From Haloferax mucosum ATCC BAA-1512 (GTDB lineage: Archaea > Halobacteriota > Halobacteria > Halobacteriales > Haloferacaceae): a stretch of DNA of 64,000 nucleotides. The DNA is taken from NCBI RefSeq assembly GCF_000337815.1, contig NZ_AOLN01000013.1, positions 62,001 to 126,000 of the forward strand. The letters are read 5' to 3'. The notes beneath the pieces were generated by a model, which ran no database searches, was not told the origin of the DNA, and worked only from the letters and a program-made list of their open reading frames with translations. A program made the position numbers and the translations under genes. Below are positions 2,834 to 42,827 of the stretch, piece after piece (positions within the stretch are counted from its first letter, which is position 1; every line of letters begins with the position of its first letter).

Positions 2834-3724
2834 ATGAGCATCGGACCCCTCGACGACGAGACGATCGAAAAGTATCGAAAGGCAGGGGAGGTCCTCCGCA
2901 CGGTGATGGACGAGTCGGCCGAGATGGTCGAACCGGGCGTCACCCATCTCGAAGTGGCCGAACACGCCGAGGAACGAATCCGCGAACTCGCAGACGGCTG
3001 TGCGTTCCCGGCCAACATCAGCATCAACGAGGAGGCGTCACACGCGAGTCCCGGCCGCGACGACGACACCGTCTTCGGTGAGGATATGGTCTGTCTGGAC
3101 CTCGGCGTCCACGTCGATGGCTACATCGCCGACTCCGCGGTCACTATCGACCTCTCGGGGAACACCGAACTCGTCGAATCCGCGGAAGAAGCGCTCGACG
3201 CCGCCCTCGACATGGTCGAGGCGGGCGCGCACACCGGCAAAATCGGGGCCGAAATCGAAGACGTGATTCGCGGCTACGGCTACACGCCGGTTCTCAACCT
3301 CTCGGGGCACGGCGTCGAACAGTGGGATGCCCACACTGACCCGACCATCCCGAACCGCGGCGCAGACCGCGGCGTCGAACTCGAAGTCGGCGACGTCGTC
3401 GCCATCGAACCGTTCGCCACCGACGGAACCGGAAAGGTCACCGAAGGCTCGAAAAACGAGATTTACAGCCTCGTCAACGACCGCTCGGTCCGCGACCGAA
3501 TGTCGCGCCAACTCCTCGACGAAGTGCGCGAGAAGTACAAACTGCTCCCCTTCGCGGCCCGCTGGTTCGACGGCGGGCGCTCCGAGATGGCAATCCGCCG
3601 CCTCGAACAGCAGGGCGTCCTTCGCGGCTACCCCGTGCTGAAAGAAGAAGAAGGTGCGATGGTCGGGCAGGCCGAACACACCGTCATCGTCACCGAAGAC
3701 GGCTACGAGAACCTGACCGAGTAG
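2834..3724 (+). CDS. map: Methionine aminopeptidase, type II
   Basis: A 296-residue pita-bread-fold metallopeptidase that removes initiator methionine from nascent proteins in the cytoplasm. The metal ligands are visible: Asp89 and Asp100 in LDLGVHVDGYIAD, the His of LSGHGVEQWDAH, Glu in AIEPFATDGTG and the final Glu in GQAEHTVIV. The roughly 60-residue insertion before the last motif is the mark of the type II (eukaryotic/archaeal) class. The ATG at 2834 gives a protein of normal archaeal length. It appears monocistronic, with an AT-rich intergenic region after it. Confidence 0.96.
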   Translation: MSIGPLDDETIEKYRKAGEVLRTVMDESAEMVEPGVTHLEVAEHAEERIRELADGCAFPANISINEEASHASPGRDDDTVFGEDMVCLDLGVHVDGYIADSAVTIDLSGNTELVESAEEALDAALDMVEAGAHTGKIGAEIEDVIRGYGYTPVLNLSGHGVEQWDAHTDPTIPNRGADRGVELEVGDVVAIEPFATDGTGKVTEGSKNEIYSLVNDRSVRDRMSRQLLDEVREKYKLLPFAARWFDGGRSEMAIRRLEQQGVLRGYPVLKEEEGAMVGQAEHTVIVTEDGYENLTE

Positions 3725-4096
3725 CTTGGGGCATTTATTGCTATTGGCGCTTTCAACTGATTTTTGAAGTCGTGCTGAGCGCAGAGTACGTGCTATTCTG
3801 GCAAAAATTTGAAACCCGCGTCTCATGTGGTTCTAAAGAGGTACTACAGGCTTCACTCATTAAGTTTTGAACCTGAAATTGGATTTTCATTCCAGTTAAT
3901 CCACTGCTACCTGCGTGCACCGTCTTTTTCTTGAGAATTACTCTTCGTTATTCTCGAAGGATTAATCCACTGAAATACTTGTTTCTGAATTAGATGTATG
4001 TCAATGGGATAGTGGTTATTTAATTTCAATATTATAATTTGTGATATGAATTGATCAAAAAATTATATGTCTATAGAATATCTGCCATCTTGAATT
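3725..4096. other. 372-bp AT-rich intergenic region with repeats
   Basis: No gene is seen. Composition falls sharply compared with the GC-rich flanks. An 11-bp direct repeat TTAATCCACTG occurs at 3896-3906 and 3962-3972, exactly 66 bp apart. Between the copies is an imperfect inverted repeat, CTTGAGAAT (3930-3938) with ATTCTCGAAG (3950-3959). The 3' end carries several TATA-like stretches leading to the next gene. This marks the left edge of an AT-rich islet. Confidence 0.6.
4062..4068 (+). promoter_or_regulatory. Probable TATA box of the Tat-protein islet
   Basis: ATTATAT lies about 30 bp before the ATG at 4097, in the usual range for a haloarchaeal promoter driving a leaderless or short-leader transcript. 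The surrounding sequence is generally AT-rich, so neighbouring matches such as CTATAG at 4071 are possible alternatives. Confidence 0.45.
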
Positions 4097-4777
4097 ATGA
4101 GAGATAATACAACTCGAAGAAAATCGATGAAAATAGCTGCTACATCCCTACTTGGGATGGTCGGTCTTGCAAAAACAGGCTCAGCAAGAGAGAAAAAAAG
4201 TTCTCAAGAATACAATTTCAACCCAGACGACAGTCAGGAAGTAGGCTCATTTATCAAAGAAAATGATCCATTGAACAATCCAGAGATTGCCGACCATTTA
4301 AGTGCAGAACAGGTTTCTGCAGTACTCGATTTTTACGCAGAAAATGTCGAGTGGTCAGTTGAAAAATCAGTGAGAAATGATACTACTGAGTTATCCACAG
4401 GAACGTCTTCTGCAGCAACTTCCTCGGCAGAACCGATACATGCAGAAGTAGTAACCAAAGGAAAAACTCCTATCGCTGGAACGGTGGAATATACCTTTGA
4501 GGCTAATTTTCAATGGTACGCACATGGCGAAGGAAATGGCTACTCTGAGCTGAGCCACAGCAGTTTTGGACAGTCAAACGCATTAGCGGGGCATTATGTG
4601 AGAGGCTCTAGGATGTCTGGTCAAACAGATATCTACTCAGACTATTTCACAGCATGGGAGTCAGGACAGTTCAAATTAGAACTGGGTGCAGATTGGCGCA
4701 CAGTTACTGCAAAAATCGAGATTAGAGGAGACGAGACCGGTGATTGGACCGTTACTGAAGAAACTTCTCCAGTATAA
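4097..4777 (+). CDS. Unrecognised Tat-exported protein
   Basis: 226 residues of no family I recognise. The N-terminus has a twin-arginine motif (TTRRKSMK), a hydrophobic stretch and an Ala-x-Ala-like end near residue 30 (TGSA), so export by the Tat pathway is likely. A linker rich in Ser/Thr (about 100-117) separates an acidic helical-looking N-terminal part from a C-terminal part rich in aromatic and beta-prone residues. There are no cysteines. The gene uses many A/T-ending codons and is clearly less GC-rich and less acidic than its neighbours, which suggests transfer or relaxed evolution. The next gene overlaps its stop by one base. Confidence 0.75.
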   Translation: MRDNTTRRKSMKIAATSLLGMVGLAKTGSAREKKSSQEYNFNPDDSQEVGSFIKENDPLNNPEIADHLSAEQVSAVLDFYAENVEWSVEKSVRNDTTELSTGTSSAATSSAEPIHAEVVTKGKTPIAGTVEYTFEANFQWYAHGEGNGYSELSHSSFGQSNALAGHYVRGSRMSGQTDIYSDYFTAWESGQFKLELGADWRTVTAKIEIRGDETGDWTVTEETSPV

Positions 4778-5253
4778 TGAACGAAAAGATAAACAGTCCA
4801 CGTTCGCGTCGTAGCTTCCTGAAGCGCTCCGCAGTAGCAACAGTCGGCATCAGTGGACTCTCAATAGGCATGATTGGGTCTTCAGCTGCTGCAAGTACAA
4901 ACAAATATTACGTTGTATATAAATCGCAAAAAGGTTCAGGGATCAACAAGATGTCAAAGCTACAGGCAAGAGTGGAATGGGATGTCAAGGATGGAATTCT
5001 CACCTACGCGGGATACTCACTTTCTGGAAATGCTGGTGGAGTAGGTGAAGATTTCTATGGAATTACTTACGAAACAGAATCTGGTGGAGTTGGTGAGGGC
5101 TATTATACAGTCTACGCAGAGGGTGACTACTATGGCTTCCAAGGAAATGCAGGTGATTATAAACATACAATAGAAGTTCAAGTTCAAGATGATGGCAGTT
5201 CCCATGCAAATACTAGCCATCGGACGGTGAAGGTTGATGAAGGTACAAGATAA
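4777..5253 (+). CDS. Unrecognised small Tat-exported protein
   Basis: 158 residues with a textbook Tat signal: RRSFLKR at 11-17, a hydrophobic core and a likely cleavage after SSAAA near residue 39. The mature part is about 119 residues. It is rich in Gly, Tyr and Val, has no cysteine and looks like an all-beta domain; two similar blocks (GGVGEDFYGITYE and GGVGEGYYTVYAE) follow each other at roughly 85-115. Its ATG overlaps the previous stop (TAATG), so the two exported proteins are made together. I cannot assign a function. A secreted bacteriocin-like or surface protein is a guess from the context of a following tiny membrane protein. Confidence 0.75.
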   Translation: MNEKINSPRSRRSFLKRSAVATVGISGLSIGMIGSSAAASTNKYYVVYKSQKGSGINKMSKLQARVEWDVKDGILTYAGYSLSGNAGGVGEDFYGITYETESGGVGEGYYTVYAEGDYYGFQGNAGDYKHTIEVQVQDDGSSHANTSHRTVKVDEGTR

Positions 5254-5331
5254 AACGTAACTCTGGCTTAGCTCTGAATACCAAACATTTTCAATAAAGT
5301 TGGCATGAGAAATATAAACTACAATCAATAA

Positions 5332-5499
5332 ATGAACAGTAGAAAAATGAACCAGACACGAAGTTGGATAGTCATTCTCGTATCCAGCGCGATAATTGGG
5401 TTCTTGTTCTATTTCTATGCGACCAGCATTGAGTACGGAATATTCGGAGTTGTACTCAGCATTATTGTACTTCGATACCTGCTGATAGTCCGGGGGTGA
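5332..5499 (+). CDS. 55-residue two-helix membrane protein
   Basis: An ATG-to-TGA frame of 55 codons (a second ATG is at codon 6) that encodes a short basic N-terminus, a hydrophobic helix around residues 12-30, a turn TSIEYG and a second helix around 38-53 ending in VRG. Two clean transmembrane helices in so short a frame are unlikely by chance, even in AT-rich DNA. It sits 78 bp after the second Tat protein on the same strand and shares its AT-rich composition. It could anchor, export or give immunity to the secreted proteins, but nothing in the sequence decides this. Confidence 0.6.
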   Translation: MNSRKMNQTRSWIVILVSSAIIGFLFYFYATSIEYGIFGVVLSIIVLRYLLIVRG

Positions 5500-5587
5500 G
5501 AGCTTTGAACGGTCCGGTATTTCATCGGATATGAAATCACTCTCAGCCAACCGAAACGCCTTGCATCTCTCGGTTCGTCAACCCGGC

Positions 5588-39219: not shown

Positions 39220-39323
39220 TACAGCCCCTGAAAAGGCTGTTATCGCCGGAATCTGGTTGTCGGAATCCGTGGATTTGCTGGCAGGATTGCATCGGTGAAC
39301 TATACAACTCCTAAAACGTAGAT

Positions 39324-39440
39324 ATGGGCCTTAATTATCTCGAATACTGCAATGATACCGAAGTTGTTCCTCTCGAATCAGGCGAGATTGAGGTTCGACA
39401 ACCGGAAACCGGGTTGAGTAGACTCAACCCCTTGTCGTAG
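39324..39440 (+). pseudogene. Possible 3' relic of an IS200/IS605 tnpB gene
   Basis: A 38-codon frame (MGLNYLEYCNDTEVVPLESGE...LNPLS) preceded in frame by a stop at 39312. The style resembles C-termini of haloarchaeal TnpB proteins, which often carry NDTEVAP- and ETGL-type segments, but I recall this only loosely. Within it is the inverted repeat GGGTTGAGT-AG-ACTCAACCC (39411-39430), and directly after its stop is a hairpin. No catalytic part of a transposase remains. Confidence 0.35.
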
Positions 39441-39458
39441 TCCCCGTTTTCAGGGGGA
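39411..39458 (+). repeat. Palindrome plus hairpin, IS200/IS605-type end candidate
   Basis: GGGTTGAGT (39411-39419) and ACTCAACCC (39422-39430) are perfect 9-bp arms separated by two bases. Eleven bases later TCCCC (39441-39445) pairs with GGGGA (39454-39458) around GTTTTCA. Structured ends of this kind close haloarchaeal IS200/IS605 elements and form the 3' scaffold of their guide RNAs. Alternatively the pair may simply be the terminator of the transcription factor S region. Confidence 0.4.
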
Positions 39459-39466
39459 AGTGAATC

Positions 39467-39474
39467 CTTATAAG
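39467..39474 (+). promoter_or_regulatory. TATA box of the DNA methylase gene
   Basis: CTTATAAG lies 27-34 bases before the ATG at 39501, at the distance expected for a leaderless transcript. It begins eight bases after the second hairpin of the putative element end, so methylase transcription appears to start right beside it. Confidence 0.55.
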
Positions 39475-39500
39475 CGATAGCGAACCACTTTACACCACGT

Positions 39501-40385
39501 ATGGGTAAGGCGCTTCCATTTCGATGGTACGGTGGCAAATACAGCCATCTTGATTTCATTCTCGCACAGCTCCCGAAGACTCACCGATACATAGAGCCAT
39601 TTGGGGGAAGTGCCGCAGTTCTAATCAACCGAGAACCAAGCCCCGTTGAGACGTACAACGATTTGGATGGGGACGTGGTGACGTTCTTCAAGGTTCTCCG
39701 CGAGAATAGGGATGAACTTCTCGAAAAGATAGCACTAACACCGTTTAGCCGTGAAGAACTCGCTCACGCTGTTGAGCAGAAGAACAACGATGAACTGAGC
39801 GATATGGAGCAGGCCCGATTGTTCTTCGTCAGGGCTGGTCAGACGCGCTCTGGGTTGGCCCAAGAAGCCACACCCGGACGGTGGGCGTACTGCAAATCAA
39901 CTTCGCGTCGAGATATGTCCGGTGCAGTTTCACGGTGGCACGGGAGACTCGAACAACTATACGACGTTGCAGACCGACTCCGTCGAGTTCAAATCGAGAA
40001 CAAACCTGCCACCGAGGTTATCGAGCGTCACGATGATGAAGACGCCTTGTTCTACTGCGACCCACCATATCCGCACGGAACAAGAGGGGACACTAACTCA
40101 TATGGTCACGAGATGAGCGACGAGGAACATCGTGAATTAGCCGAGGTTCTTCGGAGTGCAGAGGGGAAAGTTGCTGTCTCTGGCTACAAGTGTGACCTGT
40201 ATGAAGAAATCTTCGAGGATTATGGTTGGAACCGTGTTGACGCCGAGGAAAAGACGATGCACACAACGAAAGACAAGCGGCAGGAGAGTCTTTGGTTGAA
40301 TTACGAGCCTCCGAACCGTGACGTGAATCCCGGCATCGACAAAGACGCGAATCAACAGACTCTCTTCGAGGCCTCAGACGGTTGA
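39501..40385 (+). CDS. D12-class DNA adenine N6-methyltransferase
   Basis: 294 residues of the Dam/D12 family. The opening FRWYGGKYSHLDFI and motif I EPFGGSAAVLINREPS (32-47) bind AdoMet, and the catalytic motif IV is DPPY at 187-190. It methylates an adenine in a short target; GATC is the classic site of this class but the specificity here is unknown. It is the first gene of a module of lower GC than the flanks, followed by an endonuclease and a winged-helix gene, and its job is presumably to protect host DNA from that endonuclease. Confidence 0.92.
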   Translation: MGKALPFRWYGGKYSHLDFILAQLPKTHRYIEPFGGSAAVLINREPSPVETYNDLDGDVVTFFKVLRENRDELLEKIALTPFSREELAHAVEQKNNDELSDMEQARLFFVRAGQTRSGLAQEATPGRWAYCKSTSRRDMSGAVSRWHGRLEQLYDVADRLRRVQIENKPATEVIERHDDEDALFYCDPPYPHGTRGDTNSYGHEMSDEEHRELAEVLRSAEGKVAVSGYKCDLYEEIFEDYGWNRVDAEEKTMHTTKDKRQESLWLNYEPPNRDVNPGIDKDANQQTLFEASDG

Positions 40386-40388
40386 CGT

Positions 40389-40424
40389 ATCGGTTTTAGC
40401 CTTCATATCGCATTTTTGCGATAT
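40389..40424 (+). promoter_or_regulatory. Candidate operator upstream of the endonuclease gene
   Basis: TATCGGTTTTAGCC (40389-40402) matches 12 of 14 bases of TGTCGGCTTTAGCC found before the winged-helix gene. Beside it is a perfect inverted repeat ATATCGCA-TTTT-TGCGATAT at 40405-40424, which overlaps or abuts the likely promoter of the GTG start at 40460. It could serve as the operator of the module's own regulator, as the methylase terminator, or as both. Confidence 0.5.
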
Positions 40425-40459
40425 ATGACATTTATGAGCCATATTAGAAGTACGTCTCG

Positions 40460-41554
40460 GTGTCTAATTTGGCAGAAGAGAATGTCAGTTCTGAGGAAGC
40501 TTCGAAGGTTCTGAATCGGGAATGGAAACACGTTCAATCGGATGGCCAAACCGAATATATAGATGATAATCTTGTTCGGACAAAAACCAAGGAAGTTCTC
40601 ACCGACTCGAACAAGACGTATCGCTACATCTTGGTGAATGCCGCGCTCTCGAAGGCGGTGAATCCTAACATCCACTATCGGGCTTTGCAGGCAGGCTCTT
40701 CACTCGGTGGGGCATACGATGCACGTTCTGTCGCACACGGTGCTCTGGTTCCTTGGGAAAAGGGGCACGGTGAACGTCTTGGGGGAAGCCCTGAACCCTT
40801 CGTGAACAATCCTGCTCGTCATCCCGAGGTTGATACCAGCAATCGCGCCCGCTCAAGTCAGAAGCAGGAACGGCTCTACAATTTGTTACAACGAATGCAA
40901 GAGCAAGTCGAAAAGAGGGAACTTGACCCAACCGACATTCTTCGGCAGACCCTGCAAGCAGTCTCGGAATTGGAATCGAAGACGGTTGAGTTTGAGTCGC
41001 CTTCTGCCGCGCCATACGACGTCATCGCTCTCAACATCAGGGAGTATCTGAGGGACTCGGGGAACGGTGAGCGTTTACCTGCCGTCGTTGCAGGCATTAT
41101 GCAGACCTACTACGAACACGCTGGCGAAGGTGATTGGCGAGTAGACTGCGAACACGCTAATGTCTCTGACGAGTTCTCGAAGGCGGCAGGTGACGTTGAA
41201 ATCTTCTGCGATGGCGAGCTGCACAAGGCGATGGAAATTAAGGACAAACCAGCTACACAGAGTTCAGTTCAACACTCTATCGAGAAAGGTCGTAGAAACA
41301 AACTCGGAGAATATCTGTATGTCCTTGGTTCGGGATTCAAACCGGGAGAGGAAGGTGATGCACGTCAAGAAGCGGAAGATGCACCTATCGAACTCATATT
41401 CATCACTCCCGATGAACTCATTAGCACCCTGAAACTCGTTGACGACGTTGAGCGAGTCTTCTTCCTCGAAGCCGTAGGCGAGTTCCTGAACGATATGCGG
41501 GCTAATCAGTCGAATAAGAACGCGTTCACAGAGATGGTTGAATCTATCAAGTGA
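40460..41554 (+). CDS. Type II restriction endonuclease, PD-(D/E)xK, SacI-like
   Basis: 364 residues starting at a GTG; TTTATGAG at 40431-40438 is about 22-29 bases upstream, so the start is likely leaderless. The N-terminal half has IHYRALQAGSSLGGAYDARS, a pattern I associate with the SacI endonuclease family. The nuclease core is Asp245 in AAGDVEIFCDGE and Glu259-x-Lys261 in AMEIKDKP, a clean PD-(D/E)xK site. It would cut unmethylated copies of the site protected by the upstream methylase. A methylase directly beside it supports the assignment even if the SacI link is wrong. The target sequence is unknown. Confidence 0.82.
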   Translation: MSNLAEENVSSEEASKVLNREWKHVQSDGQTEYIDDNLVRTKTKEVLTDSNKTYRYILVNAALSKAVNPNIHYRALQAGSSLGGAYDARSVAHGALVPWEKGHGERLGGSPEPFVNNPARHPEVDTSNRARSSQKQERLYNLLQRMQEQVEKRELDPTDILRQTLQAVSELESKTVEFESPSAAPYDVIALNIREYLRDSGNGERLPAVVAGIMQTYYEHAGEGDWRVDCEHANVSDEFSKAAGDVEIFCDGELHKAMEIKDKPATQSSVQHSIEKGRRNKLGEYLYVLGSGFKPGEEGDARQEAEDAPIELIFITPDELISTLKLVDDVERVFFLEAVGEFLNDMRANQSNKNAFTEMVESIK

Positions 41555-41559
41555 GCATA

Positions 41560-41582
41560 TGTCGGCTTTAGCCGATATAATG
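41560..41582 (+). promoter_or_regulatory. Candidate operator overlapping the winged-helix promoter
   Basis: TCGGCT-TT-AGCCGA (41562-41575) is a perfect inverted repeat that runs straight into the TATA-like GATATAAT (41574-41581). The GTG start follows at 41617. A protein bound here would block the basal transcription factors, so autorepression is a natural reading. The left part repeats the motif found before the endonuclease gene. Confidence 0.55.
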
Positions 41583-41616
41583 CAAATATGGGATACGCCT
41601 GAACCGTGTAGATAGC

Positions 41617-41862
41617 GTGTCTCTCATTGGTGAAACTAAGATGCAGGTTCTCCGTCTTCTTGACGAGTCTGCATCTCACGGATACAAGATGCACAAAGAG
41701 ATTGGTGTTACTACCTCAACCATTTATCAGCATCTTGACGAACTTGAAGAAGCGGGTATGGTTCAATCCAATCCAGTCGAAGGCGATACTCGCAATCGGA
41801 CGGAATATCACATCACCGAGAAAGGTCGTGAATTGCTTGAGATACTTTCGGAAGAGGAATAA
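41617..41862 (+). CDS. PadR-like winged-helix regulator of the R-M module
   Basis: 81 residues starting at a GTG, essentially one winged-helix domain. GETKMQVLRLLDESASHGY is the PadR-type first helix, TTSTIYQHLDELEEAGMVQ the recognition helix and RTEYHITEKGRELLEIL the wing and last helix. It has no effector domain. The position after the endonuclease, the shared base composition and the palindromes upstream suggest it acts as a controller of endonuclease expression, the role C proteins play in bacterial systems, although bacterial C proteins have a different helix-turn-helix fold. Confidence 0.8.
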   Translation: MSLIGETKMQVLRLLDESASHGYKMHKEIGVTTSTIYQHLDELEEAGMVQSNPVEGDTRNRTEYHITEKGRELLEILSEEE

Positions 41863-41969
41863 GGTAGATTCTGGAACATCCGCAACCCGTGCCCAAGGAA
41901 TCAAGAACGGTCTGTCACCAGAAGACCAACACCAGTATTCTGATGAACGTATGAGAACACAAGGATATT

Positions 41970-42827
41970 TCAATCGCGTCTAAACACGTCTACGTTGTCT
42001 TCGACGAACTCTCGCATCGTTCTCGGGGGACGGCCGAGTACGCGTTCGGCGTCGGTGGTGACTCGCTTCGCCAGCCCAAGCCGTGCCGTGGTATAGATAC
42101 CGAGCATCACGACGACGAGTGGCATCGGAACTCGTCGTCGCATCCGGATGGCGAATTCGATAGCCCCCGGTCGAACGTATTCGATGTCGCGGTCGAGCGC
42201 CGCCGAAAAGATGTTCGCCACCTCGTGATACGAGAGCGCTTCCGGGCCGGTGACGTCGTACGCGCGGTTTTCGTGCCCCGACTCGACGAGCGCCGCCACG
42301 CCGACGGCGGCGATGTCTCTGGCATCGACGAAGCTCGTCTGTCCGTCGCCCGCAGGGACGAATAGTTCGTCGCGCTCGACGATGTCCGCGCGGTGGACGC
42401 CGGCGAGGTTCTGCATGAAAAACGATGCCCGCAGGAACGTGTACGCCACGTCCGCGGTCCGAAGGTGGTCTTCGACGCGGTGGTGTGGGAGAAGTGGGTT
42501 TTTCTCCGCTCCGAGGACCGACAGGTAGACCACGTGGGCGACGCCGACCCGCGCCGCGGCGTCGATAGCTGGAGCGAGATGGCGACCGACTCGGCTCATC
42601 GACGGCGGCCGAACGAGAAAGAGGGCGTCAACGTCCTCGAACGCTCGCCCCCACGTCTCAGGTTTGTAGAAATCGAAGTGAACGCATTCGATGTCGTGTT
42701 CGAACCGGTCGCGGGCGCGACTGACATCTCGGACGCCCGCCCGAACGTGTACGGCTTCCTCGTGGAGCTGACTGACGACGTGATTCCCAACAGTCCCCGT
42801 AGCGCCGGTGACGAGCACGCGTCTCAT
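41970..42827 (-). CDS. NmrA-like NAD(P)-binding oxidoreductase
   Basis: 285 residues from MRRVLVTGATGTVGNHVVSQL, a Rossmann GxxGxxG fold of the NmrA/azoreductase-like atypical SDR group. VDALFLVRPPSMSRV, VGVAHVVYLSVLGAEKNP and FLRASFFMQNLAG are characteristic. Members reduce quinones or azo compounds or act as NAD(P) sensors; which applies here is unknown. The longer frame upstream reads through the neighbouring gene. Its start overlaps the stop of the upstream gene by four bases, so the two are coupled. Confidence 0.9.
   Translation of the reverse strand: MRRVLVTGATGTVGNHVVSQLHEEAVHVRAGVRDVSRARDRFEHDIECVHFDFYKPETWGRAFEDVDALFLVRPPSMSRVGRHLAPAIDAAARVGVAHVVYLSVLGAEKNPLLPHHRVEDHLRTADVAYTFLRASFFMQNLAGVHRADIVERDELFVPAGDGQTSFVDARDIAAVGVAALVESGHENRAYDVTGPEALSYHEVANIFSAALDRDIEYVRPGAIEFAIRMRRRVPMPLVVVMLGIYTTARLGLAKRVTTDAERVLGRPPRTMREFVEDNVDVFRRD

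Follow-up and report, generated by a model that had tools for sequence, protein, structure and literature searches.

What is the function of the small AT-rich islet that lies between map and the gene of a HIT-domain protein in the window (the whole 64-kb stretch of DNA analysed here)? An earlier reading made from the sequence alone, hereafter the sequence-only reading, had described it as two Tat-exported proteins followed by a tiny membrane protein, with the layout of a bacteriocin/immunity system. Our favoured answer, to which we give a probability of about 0.4, is a halocin-like system in which the first two proteins (p1 and p2) would be exported effectors and the third (p3), or else an ABC exporter, would provide self-protection. 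The locus and its neighbours are as follows.

2834-3724: map (Peptidase_M24), left neighbour of the islet.
3725..4096, no strand: AT-rich non-coding left part of the islet, immediately right of map, with 76% identity to the corresponding interval of Haloferax marisrubri.
4097..4777, + strand: p1, an open reading frame of 226 aa, predicted to be Tat-exported, with a dN/dS of ~0.18, profile relatives and a confident structural model.
4777..5253, + strand: p2, an open reading frame of 158 aa, predicted to be Tat-exported (TIGR01409), with a dN/dS of ~0.08.
5332..5499, + strand: p3, an open reading frame of 55 aa, predicted from hydropathy to be a basic membrane protein, and kept in the genome G013.
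From 5588 (probable start, by comparison with relatives): HIT-domain protein, right neighbour of the islet.

The composition of the islet is as unusual as had been claimed. Its GC content is 41.3% at 3725-5500, against 62.4% for the 64-kb window (with an SD of 4.4% among stretches of the same size), and no other stretch of the window is lower. A second, milder AT-rich stretch is found at 39250-42250, with a GC of about 0.48-0.52. Codon use also departs from that of the flanks: GC3 is 34% in p1, 35% in p2 and 55% in p3, compared with values of 77-86% for map, HIT and CDF. The reduced acidity ascribed to the products holds for p2 and p3 (13% and 2% of D+E), but p1 is only moderately less acidic (17%, with a pI of 4.5) than the map and HIT proteins (21-22%). 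The three genes are co-directional and, as the coordinates of the open reading frames confirm, the stop codon of p1 and the start codon of p2 overlap in TAATG (4775-4779). A TATA-like run precedes p3, at a spacing too short for judging whether this gene has a separate promoter.

These are genuine genes. The orthologs in H. marisrubri SB3 (G009) are 87%, 93% and 87% identical to p1, p2 and p3, with dN/dS values of ~0.18, ~0.08 and ~0.16, respectively. Because of these low values, and of the homologs of p1 and p2 found in other genera, the open reading frames are beyond what is expected by chance, and all three evolve under purifying selection. They are also about as old as their surroundings. 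In the comparison with H. marisrubri, the islet genes have a dS of ~0.37-0.39, near the values of the surrounding core genes map (0.33), HIT (0.40) and CDF (0.56), and their low GC3 is common to both species, which argues against a recent import. We thus rejected recent horizontal transfer, at which the composition might hint.

We compared the map-HIT interval across 15 Haloferax species, which showed that the islet is accessory rather than core in the genus, as anticipated. It is intact in two species (the window strain and H. marisrubri) and a remnant in one (G013), and the two flanking genes are separated by only about 80-120 bp in 11 of the 15. The interval of G005 (L009) carries two unrelated open reading frames instead, one of which resembles a small hydrolase, so the gap seems to accept different inserts. 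In H. marisrubri the islet directly adjoins map, a junction established by the overlap of two contig ends; its left non-coding part (L098) includes, right of map, a MITE-like insert with inverted GGCTCTGTTGAAATC-type ends, and a long run of AT dinucleotides lies 5' of p1. In G013, p1 and nearly all of p2 were deleted, while p3 is intact (96% identity) and the first ~90 bases of the left non-coding part remain; an insertion sequence left of the islet (L097/L019), with a 12-bp duplication GTTATTGGCACT, splits the contig. The tree of map, HIT and CDF places the window strain as sister to a clade that includes H. marisrubri and G013. Ancestral presence followed by several losses fits these data best; exchange between species is a possible explanation for the distribution.

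We then searched for relatives. Apart from the Tat signals of p1 and p2, none of the three proteins matched a family in Pfam, NCBIfam, PHROGs or PADLOC, in agreement with the initial impression that they belong to no known family. With PDB sequence profiles, most matches of p1 were to signal peptides, and p2 had a single match at chance level. None of the proteins resembled in sequence, nor p1 in fold, known toxin, halocin-type or immunity families in the libraries searched. The p1 profile matched 37 of the 391 sampled genomes of Halobacteria at E < 0.001, in 21 of 86 genera; the weakest of these matches are short and near the Tat signal, and about 18 genomes are secure. Judged from these profile matches, p1 is a member of an undescribed family present in about 5-10% of sampled haloarchaea. 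Contig C10 of the window genome carries a second p1 copy, and a third match in this genome is weak. Two relatives are on named plasmids, namely pSTJ001 of Halobacterium hubeiense and one plasmid of Natribaculum breve. Searches of viral contigs and phages yielded no relatives, and a viral origin was rejected. Relatives of p2 are much rarer (5/391 genomes: the window strain, H. marisrubri, G222, G277 and G377), and the protein of G377 matches that of the window with a BLAST E-value of 3e-5. Weak matches of p3 elsewhere, to a hairpin of two membrane helices in an archaeal Lon-like protease (G336, L106) and to another large membrane protein, are probably hydrophobic look-alikes.

The export signals stand. 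The Tat motif of p2 is clear (SRRSFLK, with a TIGR01409 score above the cut-off); p1 itself has a weaker one (TRRKSMK), although strong motifs such as SRRRFIK are present in the relatives of p1. Hence, the p1 family and p2 are, like halocins, predicted to be exported proteins of haloarchaea. Both p1 and p2 are predicted to be soluble; neither has a cysteine, and therefore neither has a lipobox, and p1 lacks a C-terminal anchor. The third protein, with two hydrophobic segments and a pI of 10.2, is the tiny membrane protein that had been proposed.

The partners of the family also bear on function. We examined the neighbours of p1-family genes in 23 loci, 18 of which lack p2 and 5 of which have it, adjoining p1 in every case (5/5 genomes). 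A DrrA-like ABC ATPase is encoded within about 2.1 kb of p1 in 14 of the 18 loci lacking p2, and in none of the five that have it (Fisher p of about 0.004, with loci counted regardless of kinship). It is mostly accompanied by an ABC-2 permease. In the one pair checked against the libraries, that of G248, the ATPase scores 202 bits with the drrA model and 156 bits with that of lantibiotic-protection ATPases, both below the curated cut-offs, and is next to an ABC-2 permease. Open reading frames resembling HTH regulators, and related among themselves, are near five p1 loci. A small membrane gene is present in two of the three p2-bearing lineages: in Haloferax it is p3, placed after p2, and in G222 and G277 it encodes a protein of 109 aa between p1 and p2 and overlaps the start of the latter. 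These two membrane proteins have no detectable homology, and G377 has no membrane gene beside p1 and p2. Two other exported proteins were observed near p1 relatives. In G248 (L068 5355-6479), a Tat-exported protein of 374 aa is encoded ~180 bp upstream and has a weak serine-protease match (E of 4e-5, far below the family cut-off); in pSTJ001 of H. hubeiense (L038 3452-4510), a large Tat-exported protein matching no family is near a p1 relative and ABC genes.

The frequency of ABC-2 exporters next to p1 relatives, the resemblance of their ATPase to those of DrrA and lantibiotic-protection systems, and the nearby HTH regulator-like genes could all be explained if p1 were the extracellular partner of a resistance-type exporter, binding either a toxic compound or the halocin of another strain, with p2 and p3 replacing the pump in some lineages. 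However, the locus of the window and the other p2 loci lack ABC genes, and p1 has neither the lipobox nor the C-terminal anchor that would tether it at a pump. We regard this explanation as possible but doubtful. In the halocin-like system, the same exporters would protect the producer (or export the effector).

The model of p1, built from an alignment of 19 sequences, has after the signal a helical hairpin or region (46-82) and a beta domain (85-219), with a pLDDT of 82-94 over most of the folded part. The model of p2 is poor (pLDDT of 43), though all-strand. Foldseek found no match for the p1 fold at E < 0.001 in the PDB or in viral models. The VIA-align Z-scores of p1 are at most 6.8 (4k15, followed by leukocidin caps), which is at background level, and were therefore not used as evidence. 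Comparing the profile of p2 with that of the beta domain in p1 gave P = 6.6e-5, a score reached by none of 150 column shuffles, and hints that the two are paralogous; with single sequences, the scores were no higher than those of a few controls.

Two exported and predicted beta-rich proteins, possibly akin and translationally coupled, might alternatively assemble on the cell's own surface as part of a surface or matrix module, in which the small p3 would serve for anchoring or assembly. Yet most relatives lack the locus, G013 keeps p3 after losing p1 and p2, and the anchor motif is missing, making such a role unlikely. Very improbable is a cargo of mobile elements or viruses, such as an anti-virus or superinfection gene set: the composition is unlike that of the chromosome, some p1 relatives are plasmid-borne, and insertion sequences adjoin the locus in G013 and G222, but the islet has no integrase or replication gene, has diverged as much as the flanking genes, and has no relatives in viral contigs and phages, and PADLOC (anti-phage defence) has no match for p1, p2, p3 or their relatives.

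The decayed loci fit the halocin-like system. In G222, an insertion sequence (L074; ends GAGGGTGTCATAGAA, duplication GGACTATCAATT) splits p2 within the signal peptide, and p1 and the membrane gene are still open. Hence, both decayed loci (G013 and G222) have a missing or disrupted p2 and an open membrane gene. This is the pattern expected of toxin and immunity genes, even if, with only two such loci, the retention may be due to chance. A comparable situation is common among the lactococcin-972-like loci of pneumococci, where only scbBC is kept in 157 of 571 genomes (PMC11796350). Insertion sequences of one kind (ends GAGGGTGTCATAGAA, 12-bp target duplications) have entered p1/p2-type loci in two genera (G222 and G013).

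We favour the halocin-like system because of the patchy retention of the locus, the exported pair with a membrane partner, the self-protection-type exporter near relatives and the two decayed loci. The islet would then be an old accessory locus of haloarchaea, patchily retained and working like a halocin (archaeal bacteriocin) system. A single coupled message would encode p1 and p2, which would leave the cell in folded form through the Tat pathway and be set free in soluble form. Both jointly, or a processed p1 alone, would target the cell envelopes of related haloarchaea, and the two-helix membrane protein p3 would shield the producer. In the relatives lacking p2, the DrrA-like ATPase and the ABC-2 permease beside the p1 homolog would be the protector (or the exporter). 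Release, antagonism, self-protection and the physical pairing of p1 and p2 are steps that we infer. A narrower version, where p1 and p2 are a paralogous pair of beta domains assembling on the envelopes of rival haloarchaea and the 55-residue membrane protein confers immunity, is quite unlikely as a whole. Several observations speak against a halocin-like system: the searches linked none of the proteins to known toxins, halocins or immunity proteins, p3 shares no detectable homology with the 109-aa membrane protein, G377 has p1 and p2 without an adjacent membrane gene, and p2 has a low dN/dS, without the sign of arms-race divergence seen in some toxins. Overall, the ABC and small-membrane partners and the two decayed loci raise the likelihood of the bacteriocin/immunity layout proposed at the outset.

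How close is this locus to known systems? HmHapP (HFX_0892) is a secreted haloarchaeal precursor that kills relatives after cleavage by a protease, which releases an active N-terminal two-helix region; in HalC8 and HalH4 the released active part is C-terminal (PMC12893001). All three, like p1 and p2 under our proposed mode of action, are exported haloarchaeal proteins acting on related haloarchaea. The predicted helical region just after the signal of p1 resembles that of HmHapP, in a comparison of outline and description. In the sources consulted, neither a p2-like partner nor a separate membrane immunity protein is described for these halocins. The lactococcin-972-like systems (scbABC of pneumococci) may be compared with our loci in that their small exported effector is accompanied by membrane and ABC-type proteins (PMC11796350), but they have a single exported peptide instead of a Tat-exported pair in an archaeal host, and the corresponding Pfam and NCBIfam profiles matched none of p1, p2 and p3 with E-values up to 1-5. 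Partners of these two kinds are found here in separate settings, since the ABC genes are beside 14 p1 relatives and at none of the p2 loci, where the small membrane gene is found. The ABC-2 exporters of the DrrA and lantibiotic-protection types are matched by the ATPase beside the p1 relative of G248 and the permease next to it, but the scores are below cut-offs and the window's own locus lacks such genes. Finally, when the Foldseek rows of p1 were re-examined with VIA-align, several proved to be cap domains of leukocidin-type two-component toxins (Z of 4-6, at most 5.8). We take this as a lead on the fold only: the values are at the background of unmatched models, the Foldseek E-values are insignificant and a sequence relation is absent.

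In summary, the islet is confirmed and the sequence-only reading is supported in part. Both the family and the type of locus are undescribed, and they most likely represent a novel variant among the systems for secreted antagonism in archaea. To our knowledge, the known halocin genes are few, and immunity genes dedicated to halocins have hardly been described. If p1 and p2 are a two-component secreted antagonist, they would represent a new class of halocins with two folded subunits, and the loci with ABC exporters would be a sister class with one subunit. If the halocin-like reading is wrong, this would still be an undescribed family of exported proteins tied to a resistance-type ABC exporter. 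A family present in about 5-10% of the sampled haloarchaea, with two alternative sets of partners and natural toxin-less remnants, provides a genetically testable set that bears on how archaea attack their relatives and protect themselves.
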